DNA from: Tistrella mobilis KA081020-065
Lineage (GTDB): Bacteria; Pseudomonadota; Alphaproteobacteria; Tistrellales; Tistrellaceae
Direction of reading: 5' to 3'
DNA: 64,000 nucleotides
Assembly (NCBI RefSeq): GCF_000264455.2
Contig: NC_017956.1
Coordinates: 3,020,001-3,084,000 of the forward strand
Part shown: positions 41,139-45,810 of the stretch, in pieces
Layout of the letters: every line of letters begins with the position of its first letter
How positions within the stretch are numbered: position 1 is the first letter of the stretch
Notes under the pieces: model-generated
The model's database searches: none
Told to the model about the DNA's origin: nothing
The model's input: only the letters and a program-made list of their open reading frames with translations
Program-made: the position numbers and the translations under genes

Positions 41139-41277
41139 GCGCGCCTCGCGTTGGTTCGATCCGATCGCGGCAACGGTAGAGGCCGAATGGCCGCGTCGTC
41201 AATCCACTCTCTGACAGCCGGTCCGGGCTGCGAAATCACGTTGCACGCGCCGGATCGGGCCGCTAGCATCGTGCCCG
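41139..41277. other. Intergenic leader between cobW and the cobalamin riboswitch
   Basis: This is the left part of the 507-nt gap between divergent cobW and btuB. It should hold promoters for both directions, but I see no convincing -35/-10 pair and no reverse-strand cobalamin element for cobW. The right part of the gap holds the riboswitch and about 210 nt of hairpin-rich leader before btuB. Confidence 0.4.
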
Positions 41278-41432
41278 CACGTGGTGCCACCCCGATCCAG
41301 GCGGAGGGGGTGGAGAATTGGGAAAGCGGTACGCGGAAGGCTCATAGCCCCGCAAAGCCGCTGCTGCCCCCGCAACGGTGTGGAAGCTTAAAGGCCGTCG
41401 AAACCACTGGGTCGGAAGACCTGGGAAGGGAC
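41278..41432 (+). ncRNA. Cobalamin riboswitch upstream of btuB
   Basis: Conserved pieces appear in the right order: GGTGCC (41283-41288), GGGAAAGCGGT (41320-41330), GCTGCCCCCGCAAC (41362-41375) and the B12 box GGTCGGAAGACCTGGG (41410-41425). Between GCGGT and AAGCCGCT a short self-complementary stem (GCGG-aaGGCT-cat-AGCC-CCGC) is inserted, which lengthens one arm compared with the usual form. It precedes btuB by about 215 nt, so adenosylcobalamin should repress uptake genes. The expression platform is not clear; paired GGTCCGG/CCGGTCC-like segments follow. Confidence 0.88.
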
Positions 41433-41645
41433 GGCCCCCGGTCCGGATCTCCGGTCCGGCTTCCGAGCCCGGATACCAGCCCGTGACATGACCGGCAGGC
41501 CGCGGTGGGCGGTGAGCGCTGATCCCAAGGGGGTAGCCTTCCGGGCCGTGTTCCGGCCGCCATCTGCCCCCGTTCCGGATCCGTTTACAGACCAGTCTAG
41601 CTGCGGTCGTTGTCCCGTTCCGTCGACGAGGATGCGACCCTGTTT

Positions 41646-43613
41646 ATGCGTTTGACCTATTGGATTCAGGGGCTTGCAGCCCTGCCACCCCTTCTCGCCG
41701 CAGGCCTTGCCGGCGCGGCGGAAACCCACCTCGCCCCCCTGGCGGTCGAAGCGCCGGGCATCGAGGAGACGGCGACGTCAGACCTCGCCCGCCTGGGCTG
41801 GGAGATGGAGGTGGTGACCCGCGCCCAGATCGAGCGGGCCGGCCCCTCGGCCGACGTCACCCGGGTGCTGCAGCGCTATGTGCCGGGGCTCTACGTCGCG
41901 CCCAAGAACGGCCCCTTCGACTACGGCACCTATTCGCTGCGCGGCTCCAGATCGGCGGATATCCTGATCCTGCTCGACGGGGTACGGCTCAACAACCGGC
42001 TCTATGGCGGGCTCTACATCGACACGATATCGACCGCCGCGATCGAGCGGATCGAGGTCGTGAAAGGCGCCCAGGGGCTGATCTTCGGCACTGAGGCGGT
42101 CGCCGGCGTGATCAACATCGTCACCCGGCGGGTGACCGGCGACGATCCGGAGGGCGCGATCACGGCCGGGCTCGCCAGCGACGGCGCCCGCCATCTCGAC
42201 GGCCGGGTCGGCGACCGCTTCCCGAACGCGCTCGGTGCCCTGGATCTGATGGTGTTCGGCTCCCACGACCAGAGCAACGGGTATATCCCCTATCGCAGCG
42301 AGGACATCGACGCCACGGTCAGCGACCGCCGCCGGTCCTATCGCGTCGCCAATCTGGGCTTTCGCGCCACGCAGCATCTGGGCGATACCGCACGCGCGGA
42401 TCTGTTTTACCAGTATGCCGCCGGCAAGCTGGATTTTGCCCGCCCGGTGTCGAACCACGATACCTTCAACGACCGCACCCAGCACATCGTGACCGCAAGC
42501 TTCGAGCACACGCCCTCTCAGGCTTTCGACTACGCACTGCGTGCCCATCTCAATGTCTGGGATACGGACTATACCCGGATCTACAATCAGCCCGGCGGCG
42601 GCACGACCACGGTCAATGACGGCGACTATTGGGGCTTCAAGGATTACGGGCTGAAGGCCCAGGGCCGCTGGCGCTTCGCCGGCCAGGAACTGCTCTTCGG
42701 GGCCGACAGCCAGTTCTACCGGGGCGCCGACGATGTGCTGGTCATCGGCAAGCAGACCGGTGAGGCCTATGGCCTGTTCACCCAGCTCCGGCCACATCTG
42801 GAGGCCCTGCCCGAGACCGATCTGTCGATCGGCACCCGCTACAACTGGACGGCCGACGGCGCCGAGGCCCTGGTCTGGTCGGCCAGCATCCGCCAGGGCT
42901 TCGGTCCGGCCTTCATCCGCGCGCTTGCCGGCACCTCCTTCCGCCTGCCCACCGCCGAGCAGCTCTATGCCAACGACGATTGCTGCGCCAAGGGCAATCC
43001 GGGCCTCGATCCCGAGACCAGCCGCGAGGTGGAACTGGGCGGCGGCGTCGACTTCGATCTCGGCCGCGATGCCCGCCTCACCCTGGAAGTCACGGCCTTC
43101 CGCCGCGAGATCGACGACATGATCGACGGCTCCGGCGACCGCTTCGTCAACATTTCGGAAGGCGTGCTCTCGGAAGGCGTGGAGCTTGAGGCCGGGCTCG
43201 ATTTCGCCCGCGGCTGGTCGACCGGGGCCGGGGTCACTTTCGTCTCGACCGAACGTCGGGACACCGGGCTGCAGCTCGACAACATCCCGACCCGCCACGG
43301 CTTCGTCCGCATCGGCTATGAAACGCCGGATGACACGCGGGGCTTTGCGCCGGGTGACAGTTGGGGCGCCGATCTCTATGCCCGTCATGTCGGCGATGTC
43401 CGCGCGCGTGGCACAGAATATGGCGACTATGTCGTCTTCGATGCCTCGGGCTTCTATGCCTTCGGCCCGAACGGCGCTCACCGGCTGACCCTGACGGTCG
43501 AAAACCTCTTCGACCGCAACTACGCCACCGGCCGCACCACCGGCGCCTCGGGTCAGGTCGACCAGCTCGGCCGGCCGCTCACCGCGGAACTGCGCTATGG
43601 CTACAGTTTCTGA
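41646..43613 (+). CDS. btuB: TonB-dependent outer-membrane receptor (BtuB-like)
   Basis: A 655-residue TonB-dependent receptor for cobalamin-type ligands. The signal peptide (LAALPPLLAAGLAGAAE) is followed by the plug domain: VEVVTRAQIERAGPSADVTRVLQRYVPGLYV-like start, YSLRGSRSADILILLDGVRLNN and IERIEVVKGAQGLIFGTEAVAGVINIVT. The remainder is a beta barrel with alternating hydrophobic strands, ending in RYGYSF with C-terminal Phe. I use the ATG at 41646 (MRLTYW) because it begins the signal peptide, although GAGG is 14 nt away. Its riboswitch and its neighbours mark the ligand as cobalamin. Confidence 0.88.
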   Translation: MRLTYWIQGLAALPPLLAAGLAGAAETHLAPLAVEAPGIEETATSDLARLGWEMEVVTRAQIERAGPSADVTRVLQRYVPGLYVAPKNGPFDYGTYSLRGSRSADILILLDGVRLNNRLYGGLYIDTISTAAIERIEVVKGAQGLIFGTEAVAGVINIVTRRVTGDDPEGAITAGLASDGARHLDGRVGDRFPNALGALDLMVFGSHDQSNGYIPYRSEDIDATVSDRRRSYRVANLGFRATQHLGDTARADLFYQYAAGKLDFARPVSNHDTFNDRTQHIVTASFEHTPSQAFDYALRAHLNVWDTDYTRIYNQPGGGTTTVNDGDYWGFKDYGLKAQGRWRFAGQELLFGADSQFYRGADDVLVIGKQTGEAYGLFTQLRPHLEALPETDLSIGTRYNWTADGAEALVWSASIRQGFGPAFIRALAGTSFRLPTAEQLYANDDCCAKGNPGLDPETSREVELGGGVDFDLGRDARLTLEVTAFRREIDDMIDGSGDRFVNISEGVLSEGVELEAGLDFARGWSTGAGVTFVSTERRDTGLQLDNIPTRHGFVRIGYETPDDTRGFAPGDSWGADLYARHVGDVRARGTEYGDYVVFDASGFYAFGPNGAHRLTLTVENLFDRNYATGRTTGASGQVDQLGRPLTAELRYGYSF

Positions 43614-44358
43614 GCGATCCCCCGATCTGATCCTTCTGCTCGTCCGTCGCGGCTATGGCAGTCCGCGGCGGCTGGAGGCCCTGCGTGCCGCGGTGGCGGC
43701 GCGTCTCGCCGACGAGACCGGTTTTGCAGGGCCGGTGGTGCTGGGTTTCGCAGAACTGGCGGTGCCTTCGGTCTCGGGCGCACTGGATGGCCTGGCCGAT
43801 CAAGGCCGGATCCGGGTGCTGGTGGTCGATCTGATCGTGCCCGCGGATATGAGCCTGCGGGGCTGGCTGCCCGGCGCGCTGCATGACTGGGCCAACCGCC
43901 GGGGCGTCGCACTCGACATCGCCTTTTCGGACCCGGTGGACGGCGACCCCGCCTTCGTCTCGGCGGTGGTCTCGCGGATCACCAGCGGGGCGGCGGAAGA
44001 TGTCCGCCAGAGCCCCGCCACCGACAGCCGGCCGTCCTGGAACGACCCGCCGGATCATGCCTTCCATCTCTTCGCCTGCGACGGGCCACGCTGCGCCCAT
44101 CGCGGATCGGGCGCCGTCTGGACGGCGATGCTGGATGCGCTGGAAGAGGCGGGGCTGCGCGGCAAGACGGCGGAGCGGGTGATGGTCACCCGCACCCGCT
44201 GCCTCTATCCCTGCAATCGCGGGCCGGTGGCGACGATCCATCCGGGCGGCTTCTGGTATGCGGTGCCCGATGCCGAGGCCGCCCGCCGGATCGCGGTCGA
44301 GCATCTGAAGAACGGCCGGCCGGTGGCCGATCTGCTGTTCCGGGAGCGGGGTGATTGA
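43597..44358 (+). CDS. Degenerate CbiX-like domain fused to thioredoxin-like [2Fe-2S] ferredoxin
   Basis: A 253-residue two-domain protein. Residues 10-128 follow the CbiX/sirohydrochlorin chelatase fold (LILLLVRRGYGSPRRLEAL, VLGFAELAVPSVSGAL, IRVLVVDLIVP), but the catalytic GHGS histidine is Tyr20 and the second metal histidine is not seen. Residues 155-245 form a NuoE-like [2Fe-2S] domain with C161, C166, C202 and C206 (CX4C, CX3C). It overlaps the btuB end by 17 nt and the next gene by 4 nt, so it is made with the B12-uptake proteins. It may act as a redox or metal-handling partner; the role is unknown. Confidence 0.75.
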   Translation: MATVSERSPDLILLLVRRGYGSPRRLEALRAAVAARLADETGFAGPVVLGFAELAVPSVSGALDGLADQGRIRVLVVDLIVPADMSLRGWLPGALHDWANRRGVALDIAFSDPVDGDPAFVSAVVSRITSGAAEDVRQSPATDSRPSWNDPPDHAFHLFACDGPRCAHRGSGAVWTAMLDALEEAGLRGKTAERVMVTRTRCLYPCNRGPVATIHPGGFWYAVPDAEAARRIAVEHLKNGRPVADLLFRERGD

Positions 44359-45317
44359 GGCGTCTGGTCGCCCTGCTCCTGCTCTGCACAGCGCTCGGGG
44401 CCGGCCCCGCCCGCGCGGCGGATGCCTGTGGCAACCCGCCCCTGCCCCAGATCCCCCCGCAGCGGGTGGTCGTGGTGCATCAGCAGGCGATCGAGATCCT
44501 GCTCGCCCTGAGCCTTGAAGACCGGATCGCCGCCGCCGGTTATCTCGATGACGCTCTGCCGCCCGATCTTCAGACCGGGTTCGACCGCATCCCCATCCGG
44601 TTCGACCGCTATCTCGCGACCGAAGCCGTCGCGGGTCTGCTGCCGGATCTCGTGCTGGGCGGCTTCGCCGCGGCCTTCGGTGCCGGCGGGCTGGGCCCGC
44701 GGGAGACCTTCGCGGGGCTCGGCATCCCGACCCATGTGCTGGCCTCGGGCTGCATGACCGCAGGCGATGATCCGGTCGCGACCGCCATCGCCGACATCCG
44801 GCAGATGGGCGCGCTGTTCGATCGGCGGCAAAGGGCCGATGCGCTCGTGGCGGAGATCGAGGCCGGGCTGGAGGCCCTGCAGCCCGGGCCGGCACTGACG
44901 GTTTTCATCTATGACGGCGGCGAGAAAGCGCCCTATACCATCGGCCGCGACGGCCTGCTCACCCGCCTGCTCGCCCGCGGCGGTGCGCGCAACGTCTTCG
45001 ACGACACGCCCGGCCGCTGGGCGACGGTATCCTGGGAGGCCGTTCTGGCCCGCGACCCGGATCTGATCCTGCTGGTCGGCACCACGGCCGACCCTGCCGC
45101 CGAGAAGCGCCGACGGCTCGAAGCCGATCCGGCGCTTGCCGGTCTTCGTGCCCTTCAGACCGGGCATGTGGCGACCATCCCCTTCTCCGAAACCGTCGCC
45201 GGCATCCGCACCGGCACCGCCGCCCGCCATCTGGCCCGGATCCTGGCTGCGGCGCGCCAATCGGCCGCAGACGCACCCCTTGCCGGAGATGCCCCATCGC
45301 CCCATAACATTCCCTGA
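44355..45317 (+). CDS. btuF: Periplasmic cobalamin-binding protein (BtuF-like)
   Basis: This 320-residue cluster A-II binding protein has a signal peptide (VALLLLCTALG, ARA cleavage). The mature protein begins with the family strand PQRVVVVHQQAIEILLALSLEDRIAAAGY and holds DLVLGGF, a long backbone helix (DRRQRADALVAEIEAGLEAL) and DPDLILLVGT. Start is TTG at 44355, overlapping the previous stop. It would receive cobalamin after BtuB, but no btuC or btuD follows; a globin gene comes next, so the permease and ATPase must be elsewhere. Confidence 0.82.
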   Translation: MRRLVALLLLCTALGAGPARAADACGNPPLPQIPPQRVVVVHQQAIEILLALSLEDRIAAAGYLDDALPPDLQTGFDRIPIRFDRYLATEAVAGLLPDLVLGGFAAAFGAGGLGPRETFAGLGIPTHVLASGCMTAGDDPVATAIADIRQMGALFDRRQRADALVAEIEAGLEALQPGPALTVFIYDGGEKAPYTIGRDGLLTRLLARGGARNVFDDTPGRWATVSWEAVLARDPDLILLVGTTADPAAEKRRRLEADPALAGLRALQTGHVATIPFSETVAGIRTGTAARHLARILAAARQSAADAPLAGDAPSPHNIP

Positions 45318-45339: not shown

Positions 45340-45810
45340 ATGACCGCACATCCCGAAGGCGGGCCCGCCCGCCGCCAGGCACTGACCCGCGAGGTGATGG
45401 CGGCCACCGGCCTCGACGATGCGATGATCGGTCTGGTGGTCGACCGCTTCTACGATCGGGTGCGGGCCGATCCCGTGCTGGCGCCGCTCTTCGCCACCCG
45501 GCTGTCGGATGCGGATTGGGGGCCGCATCTGGCGAAGATGAAGCGCTTCTGGTCATCCCTCGCCCTGATGACCGGCGATTATCACGGCCGGCCGATGCAG
45601 GCCCATCTGCCGCTGCCGGTCTCGGGCGCCGATTTCGACCGCTGGCTCGCCCTCTTCCGCGAGACCGCCACCGACCTCTGCACACCCGCGGGCGCCGCCC
45701 TGCTGATCGACAAGGCCGAACGGGTCGCCGCCAGCCTGGAACTCGGCATCGCCGCCGGCCGCGGCCATATGCTCCGCCGGGGCGAGCGGCTGCCGGCGAC
45801 AGAGGCATAG
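45340..45810 (+). CDS. Group III truncated hemoglobin-like protein
   Basis: A 156-residue 2/2 globin. FYDRVRADPVLAPLFATRL holds the early helices, DWGPHLAKMKRFWSSLALMTGDYHGRPMQAHLPLP fits the E to F region with the haem-ligand histidine in MQAHLPLP, and FDRWLALFRETATDLC the following helices. GGAGG five nt before the ATG at 45340 fixes this start over the ATG at 45328. It is 22 nt downstream of the btuF-like gene. Group III members bind O2 or NO with high affinity and are linked to oxidative or nitrosative stress; a tie to B12 is not known. Confidence 0.85.
   Translation: MTAHPEGGPARRQALTREVMAATGLDDAMIGLVVDRFYDRVRADPVLAPLFATRLSDADWGPHLAKMKRFWSSLALMTGDYHGRPMQAHLPLPVSGADFDRWLALFRETATDLCTPAGAALLIDKAERVAASLELGIAAGRGHMLRRGERLPATEA

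Follow-up and report, generated by a model that had tools for sequence, protein, structure and literature searches.

The cobalamin locus of Tistrella mobilis KA081020-065 raises the question of what a protein that joins a chelatase fold lacking its catalytic residues to a [2Fe-2S] ferredoxin domain does between two genes of vitamin B12 uptake. The gene lies at 43597-44358 of the window (the whole 64,000-nucleotide stretch analysed, contig NC_017956.1, positions 3,020,001 to 3,084,000 of the forward strand), where the open reading frame (ORF) reported by a first-pass annotation is confirmed at 253 amino acids (aa). The fusion protein is a conserved, probably cytoplasmic member of the B12 regulon, and its family probably has a part in the handling or reduction of B12-type molecules, or of their cobalt, once these are inside the cell. 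More narrowly, the protein is tentatively proposed to be a cytoplasmic corrinoid-binding reductase that feeds adenosylation, a reading whose chance is put somewhat short of even. The parts of the gene on which the argument rests, in window coordinates, are:

43597..44358, + strand: CbiX-like/[2Fe-2S] ferredoxin fusion gene, 253 aa, stop included (Pfam, AlphaFold2 model)
43618..44004, + strand: N-terminal single CbiX/CfbA-type lobe, residues ~8-136 (AlphaFold2 model and profile A5)
43645..43647, + strand: codon 17 (Arg), aligned with the first catalytic His of CbiX (mapped by profile A5)
43852..43866, + strand: codons 86-90, SLRGW in place of the chelatase H-x-x-x-D, with Ser86 for the second His and Trp90 for the Asp
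44050..44346, + strand: C-terminal thioredoxin-like [2Fe-2S] ferredoxin domain, residues ~152-250 (1m2a match)
44077..44214, + strand: predicted cluster ligands Cys161, Cys166, Cys202 and Cys206 (C-x4-C ... C-x3-C)

The catalytic residues of the chelatases are lost throughout the family. Residues 16-22 of the window protein read VRRGYGS, where chelatases have GHGS in alignments to 3lyh, SirB and CfbA; the catalytic pair of A. fulgidus CbiX-S is given as His10 and His74 in PMC7689651. In a 93-row alignment, the column of the first catalytic His holds no His among 86 residues (R47, K14, P10, Q7, S6, N1 and A1, with seven gaps), that of the second (column 86) holds none among 92 (S34, N17, Y11, K9 and others, with one gap), and the position of the HxxxD Asp (column 90) is Trp in 93 of 93 rows. 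A stray His occurs in columns 83-88 of eight of the 93 rows, and no row has a His near both sites. Thus, the first observation that the catalytic histidines are missing, with RRGYGS for GHGS, holds family-wide, and, because both His columns are empty and the Trp is invariant, the loss is a family trait with a conserved signature of its own and not decay in one genome. Cys161, Cys166, Cys202 and Cys206 are kept in 93, 92, 93 and 93 of the 93 members, respectively, and the C-terminal domain is predicted to carry a [2Fe-2S] cluster.

The fold was assessed with an AlphaFold2 model built with 82 family sequences (mean pLDDT 91.3, pTM 0.83), while the residue correspondence to the chelatases is supplied by profile A5, made of 47 N-terminal lobes. 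The CbiX-like character first ascribed to the N-terminal half is borne out by both: VIA-align places model residues 8-136 on CbiX 3lyh (Z 11.8, rmsd 3.4, 119 residues), and profile A5 aligns with SirB 6jv6 (3.4e-15), CbiX 3lyh (2.3e-13) and CfbA (~6e-8). CfbA structures, some with bound Co2+ or tetrapyrrole, are also matched by Foldseek, and the heme-binding FetB 9b86 gives a weak profile match (E 1.3e-4 and 1.2e-3) in which no single stretch passes alone. The C-terminal half was first described as NuoE-like with four cysteines; the cysteines are all present, but the domain is closer to the stand-alone thioredoxin-like [2Fe-2S] ferredoxins of Aquifex and Azotobacter than to NuoE. Model residues 153-250 align on the Aquifex [2Fe-2S] ferredoxin 1m2a (VIA-align Z 15.4, rmsd 1.8, 94 residues), the Aquifex ferredoxin is the nearest solved sequence, and in NCBIfam NuoE ranks behind the Azotobacter and clostridial 2Fe-2S ferredoxins, which match best. 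In Pfam, the window protein stays under the curated cut-offs for CbiX (residues 27-124, 20.2 bits against 22) and for 2Fe-2S_thioredx (residues 152-215, 19.8 bits against 24.8). At E<=0.01, 90 family members including the window protein match six Pfam families in all, with 2Fe-2S_thioredx in 79 and CbiX in 63; at the same threshold no flavin domain is found among the matches of the window protein or the 90 members, and FhuF_C is absent from the six families.

The family is sparse in the sampled genomes of the window's class, and its loci come from Proteobacteria, Actinomycetota and Chloroflexota. A single-protein search of 289 genomes of the class recovered long two-domain matches only in the genus and in G015 (35%), most other matches covering the ferredoxin part alone, and a 12-row profile gave a long match in five of 385 sampled genomes of the class (the window's own genome, G033, G162, G015 and G314). 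Further long relatives were found on plasmids by tblastn, in Azospirillum, Shinella, Neorhizobium, Paracoccus, Roseinatronobacter and Rhodococcus; most annotated plasmid records name the protein just '(2Fe-2S) ferredoxin domain-containing protein'. A scan of genome contigs yielded 253 relatives, of which the best 80 were used. The 93 loci comprise the window, three loci (L032-L034), nine plasmid loci and the 80 genome-contig loci, all gathered by protein similarity alone, with neighbours playing no part in the choice; from L001-L031, the genus relatives and the one in G015 were taken in, as L032-L034, and no others. Sixteen loci are termed Chloroflexota-type, 14 labelled Chloroflexota and two from one metagenome-assembled genome (MAG) labelled Gracilibacteria. 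The window's genome also holds a second ferredoxin-like ORF (G000:C1:3749403-3749720, L002) with 29% identity to the C-terminal domain of the fusion.

The gene setting in the window is formed by three further features:

41264..41498, + strand: cobalamin riboswitch at the operon head (Rfam RF00174, 83.2 bits against a gathering score of 31.5)
41610..43613, + strand: BtuB-like TonB-dependent outer-membrane receptor ORF (Pfam Plug, 3.4e-22)
44355..45317, + strand: BtuF-like periplasmic binding protein, Peripla_BP_2 (Pfam PF01497, 4.6e-21)

The position first assigned to the fusion gene, between a riboswitch-led btuB-like gene and a btuF-like gene, therefore stands, with ORFs that overlap at both ends. 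The BtuB-like ORF ends (43613) 17 bases into the fusion gene, and the TTG start of the BtuF-like ORF (44355) overlaps its last bases; because of these two overlaps, translation of the three genes is probably coupled. The BtuB-like ORF begins with TTG at 41610 and has an in-frame ATG at 41646, which matches the ORF start in the two relatives of the genus. It scores almost equally for TIGR01779 TonB-B12 (145 bits) and TIGR01783 TonB-siderophore (143 bits), both under cut-off, and the BtuF-like ORF is likewise under cut-off for TIGR03868 (165 bits) and for BtuF NF002894 (36 bits). PF01032, with which a BtuCD partner was sought, has 18 matches in the window's genome, and a home-made profile found no riboswitch in the ten short loci of that genome checked for this partner. 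Next after the btuF-like gene, at 45340-45810, comes a bacterial globin gene (PF01152, 25.4 bits), and both genus relatives have a similar downstream ORF.

Across the family, riboswitches were sought on all 93 loci with a profile made from 13 Rfam hits, and with Rfam itself on the window and 53 of the 92 others; neighbours were labelled by phmmer (E<=1e-8) against seeds named from annotations and Pfam, window seeds such as BtuR, CobK and CbiD being named by reading only. Of the 93 loci, 64 have a cobalamin riboswitch on the same strand no more than 6 kb upstream, and 62 of these are among the 77 loci that do not come from Chloroflexota-type MAGs. The figure comparable to the control is 22 of 93 (riboswitch within 1.5 kb upstream), against none of the 26 loci that match over the ferredoxin part only (L006-L031, <=1.5 kb per side). 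In these counts, a weak match in L103 (nhmmer 1.2e-4, 48 bases) was dropped as not reported by Rfam, the riboswitch of L100 was added from Rfam, L069 and L074 are uncounted (riboswitch after the gene), and L085 begins at a contig end. A same-strand importer is found within 6 kb in 80 of the 93 loci (60 of FecCD/BtuCD type and 20 of Nik type, the Nik label of L106 resting on genes 4.8 kb off); widening the limits to 8.5 kb and both strands gives 86 loci (63 Fec, 23 Nik). On a quick tree of the 93 rows, the same-strand labels require at least six Fec/Nik changes, five of them forced by well-supported branches (L104 and L107 being long branches); with the looser either-strand labels, the Nik label needs eight changes, six forced. 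Linkage of the btuB/btuF type, whose absence the first-pass annotation would have counted against itself, is thus conserved. Its placing of the gene 'in the B12-uptake operon' is too narrow, as the gene also occurs with riboswitch-led nrdAB, in cob clusters and with Nik- and NMT1-type importers.

These other settings are diverse. The order riboswitch-nrdA-nrdB-family gene is seen in one clade (L101, L123 and L124); in Bosea sp. CRIB-10 (L123 4466-9753), for example, the family gene comes after the riboswitch-led class I ribonucleotide reductase genes nrdA and nrdB. L118 and L100 also have nrd-like ORFs, but these, with the riboswitch ahead of them, sit on the strand opposite to the family gene. 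In Variovorax (L106 and L115), the gene follows an NMT1-type ABC importer (NMT1_2 binding protein) with no recognised riboswitch, and both genomes are without the two corrin-synthesis markers described below. Azospirillum L036 and L053 have CobN-like, ExbB-like and DUF2149-like genes ahead of the family operon, and in L036 nikR is on its other side. A plasmid of Rhodococcus sp. PD04 (L039 6703-11167) has, next to the family operon, another riboswitch-led FecCD operon; this one encodes a DUF7676 protein and an FhuF-like [2Fe-2S] protein, as though FhuF-like and CbiX-ferredoxin proteins could replace each other.

Whether the family serves B12 synthesis or B12 use bears directly on its function. 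CbiC, a marker of de novo corrin synthesis, is present in 60 of the 79 genomes; of the 19 without it, two have CobJ above cut-off, so that 17 of 79 are without both. A strict link to B12 synthesis, as in a cobalt-only model, was rejected on this count. Twelve of the 17 marker-less records are labelled MAG, and some absences in these may be assembly gaps; the five others (two Enterovirga, one Polaromonas and two Variovorax) are firmer. All 17 hold B12-binding-domain proteins and 15 hold a PduO-type adenosyltransferase, which marks them simply as ordinary B12 users, since both families are common in control genomes (12 of 14 and nine of 14, respectively). In the two Enterovirga and the Polaromonas, riboswitch, TonB receptor, FecCD importer and family gene stand in one row, and in a marker-less Methylobacterium MAG the family gene lies behind riboswitch-led nrdAB and adjoins a riboswitch-led TonB/FecCD operon. 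The cargo of the TonB/FecCD operons in these genomes is most simply a corrinoid, and, because three of them have the gene inside such an operon, cobalt supply for synthesis is unlikely to be the whole role of the protein. NicO (PF03824), used to gauge cobalt-importer redundancy, was looked for in 50 of the 79 genomes, spread over the context types, and occurs in 39 of them; this count is uninformative because the family also includes exporters.

In the proposed mechanism, the N-terminal lobe would derive from a small tetrapyrrole chelatase of CbiX type whose metal-inserting residues were replaced (the first His mostly by Arg/Lys, the second mostly by Ser/Asn and the Asp by Trp) while its fold was kept. 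The old lobe would act as a corrinoid-binding cleft, perhaps in a homodimer as in CbiX-S, and the C-terminal [2Fe-2S] ferredoxin would donate electrons one at a time to the cobalt bound there. Corrinoids that enter as Co(III) or Co(II) would thereby be reduced, with an upper ligand such as cyanide possibly removed, which would let the adenosyltransferase (PduO/BtuR/CobO) act; in organisms that make B12, this activity could also provide the reduction that precedes adenosylation. We infer corrinoid binding, electron transfer and this place in the pathway for the fusion protein because a step on corrin cobalt is the simplest way to account for the two importer types, the cob operon, an adenosyltransferase neighbour and a family found both in genomes that have corrin synthesis and in genomes that do not. 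The modelled lobe, with the fold of the tetrapyrrole-binding CbiX/CfbA, would support a corrinoid ligand. In two Camelimonas the family gene closes the cob operon, and in L051 a gene that resembles the window's BtuR/CobO-like ORF (a label given by reading) lies directly downstream; both settings fit B12 maturation.

Several observations weigh against a corrinoid reductase. An upstream riboswitch within 6 kb is found in just two of the 16 Chloroflexota-type loci and was not recognised in the other 14 (L048, L050, L051, L054, L055, L064, L071, L072, L077, L080, L083, L087, L089 and L098); 13 of these 14 have importer genes nearby on either strand, and another control element may have been overlooked there. 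The same-strand partner is a Nik-type importer in 20 of the 93 loci, and we know of no corrinoid cargo for such importers. All nine tested genomes with a same-strand, riboswitch-led Nik-type operon carry a corrin-synthesis marker, as cobalt import predicts, a contrast that is weak because 38 of the 42 tested genomes with a FecCD-type riboswitch operon carry one too. CobW-like genes lie ~2.6-3 kb upstream in the Chloroflexota loci L075, L083 and L089, and the signature Trp may reflect folding instead of ligand binding. As the protein, unlike CobR, has no flavin domain, it would need an electron donor. The cluster, moreover, need not be a corrin reductant, since several true chelatases carry Fe-S centres that are dispensable for catalysis, as stated in PMC7689651. 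Thus, of the role in corrin uptake or reduction first suggested, the linkage to B12-regulon importers is upheld, but the Nik-type importers, CobW-like genes and cob-operon end fit cobalt handling as well.

Handling of cobalt or a cobalt chelate, to which these features point, is the main alternative: the ferredoxin would reduce a Co(III) chelate brought into the cell, rather as iron is freed from siderophores by [2Fe-2S] reductases of the FhuF type, or the lobe would relay Co2+ from the importer to CobW/CobN. It is judged unlikely. The Nik-type partners belong to a family named for nickel/cobalt, their marker-bearing genomes, the CobW-like genes and the Camelimonas position all agree with it, the Azospirillum TonB receptor is of siderophore type (276 bits against 95 bits for the B12 model), and the FhuF-like protein of the Rhodococcus plasmid occupies the matching place in its own operon. 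By contrast, cobalt for B12 synthesis would make no sense in the three marker-less genomes with the gene inside a riboswitch-led TonB/FecCD operon or in the fourth with the gene beside one; the 17 genomes without both markers and the similar marker frequency in FecCD-type genomes count against it as well, and free Co2+ requires no reductase. The protein may instead be a dedicated electron donor, the lobe docking on an adenosyltransferase, a class I ribonucleotide reductase or an importer ATPase while the ferredoxin gives electrons. This is distinctly improbable. Because the partner importers have been exchanged about five times on the tree, a shared partner may lie elsewhere, and in three related loci the gene follows riboswitch-led nrdA-nrdB; however, nrd-like genes adjoin just five of the 93 loci, and, as three of these are one clade, they left the assessment unchanged. 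The nrd link may also be regulatory only, since a B12-independent reductase is expected in a B12 regulon, and a chelatase fold would be odd as a docking domain.

Two alternatives stay closer to chelatase chemistry. A dechelatase or ligand-exchange protein, removing cobalt from damaged or unusable corrinoids or other tetrapyrroles, would suit the chelatase ancestry and the CobN-, ExbB- and DUF2149-like genes of Azospirillum, but neither metal-handling His nor the Asp is left in the family and we know of no precedent for cobalt removal from corrin, so that this explanation is very improbable. Less probable still, to the point of being hardly credible, is an ordinary active CbiX cobalt, iron or nickel chelatase with shifted active-site residues: the Pfam CbiX matches in 63 of 90 members favour it, whereas the empty His columns, the invariant Trp for Asp and the occurrence in genomes without corrin-synthesis markers do not. 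A bolder extension of the corrinoid reductase reading is that a chelatase fold has become a soluble Fe-S corrinoid reductase serving several unrelated ABC importers, in which case the riboswitch-led Nik-type operons, and perhaps the NMT1-type operons of Variovorax, would be unrecognised importers of corrinoids and not of metal. It is suggested by the repeated swapping of the same protein between these and BtuCD-type importers, about five times, and is regarded as a long shot. NikABCDE systems behind B12 riboswitches are reported for two Firmicutes in PMC2667541.

Compared with known systems, the family shares with the small class II chelatases CbiX-S and CfbA (3lyh, 6m25) a common single-lobe fold, alignable along the 3lyh lobe, and differs in that both His and the HxxxD Asp are replaced, a ferredoxin domain is added and the genes mostly adjoin importers and not corrin-synthesis genes. 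The CbiX-L/ferredoxin fusions of haloarchaea and Leptospira (L044, L045 and L126-L129; 389-409 aa) carry CbiX lobes followed by the same type of ferredoxin, and B12 genes adjoin most of the six; they differ in having two lobes, the first with its GHGS His intact, and a DUF3209 neighbour in all six. The idea that the N-terminal domain is a non-catalytic second lobe left from such a fusion (the second lobe of SirB also has GRGS) was rejected, because profile A5 scores the first lobe clearly above the second in five haloarchaeal fusions (36.7-47.7 versus 19.3-25.0 bits); the Leptospira fusion gives 23.0 versus 19.1 bits. The ferredoxins Aquifex Fd (1m2a) and Azotobacter FeSI (5abr) have the same thioredoxin-like fold and cluster cysteines but are stand-alone, whereas that of the family is fused to a chelatase lobe.

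Functional parallels are drawn by analogy. CobR and PduS would share the proposed chemistry, reduction of corrin cobalt ahead of adenosylation; CobR is described in PMC4083273 as an FAD corrin reductase that acts on the corrin cobalt before adenosylation, and the family members match no such flavin domain in Pfam. FhuF-type ferric-siderophore reductases are likewise [2Fe-2S] proteins that adjoin FecCD importers, but are built on another domain, FhuF_C being unmatched in the 90 members. BtuM, according to PMC8123684, is a membrane protein that decyanates cobalamin, a transporter using a Cys ligand; the likeness would lie in a step on imported cobalamin, which for the family is a proposal, and the family protein is an Fe-S fusion with no membrane domain matched. 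PMC2667541 lists CbtX, a label considered for the family protein, among predicted cobalt transporters, and no link between the two was found.

Both halves of the protein are known folds, and its riboswitch-importer setting is already known from PMC2667541 and PMC7689651. What appears to be new is the degenerate CbiX-ferredoxin family and its link to the B12 regulon: no description of either was found in the literature searched, although Rodionov et al. 2003 (J Biol Chem 278:41148) may contain an earlier prediction, and, in line with the absence of an assigned function noted at the outset, no characterised orthologue was found in the literature searched.

For most bacteria, the route by which imported cobalamin becomes reduced ahead of adenosylation is not settled, and housekeeping flavins or flavodoxins are usually assumed. 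The family offers a conserved, B12-regulated candidate for cobalamin reduction in several bacterial phyla. Its sharp signatures at the chelatase positions (mostly Arg/Lys, mostly Ser/Asn, and Trp) make the reductase idea directly testable, and its repeated pairing with Nik-type importers provides a handle on the cargo of riboswitch-led transporters.

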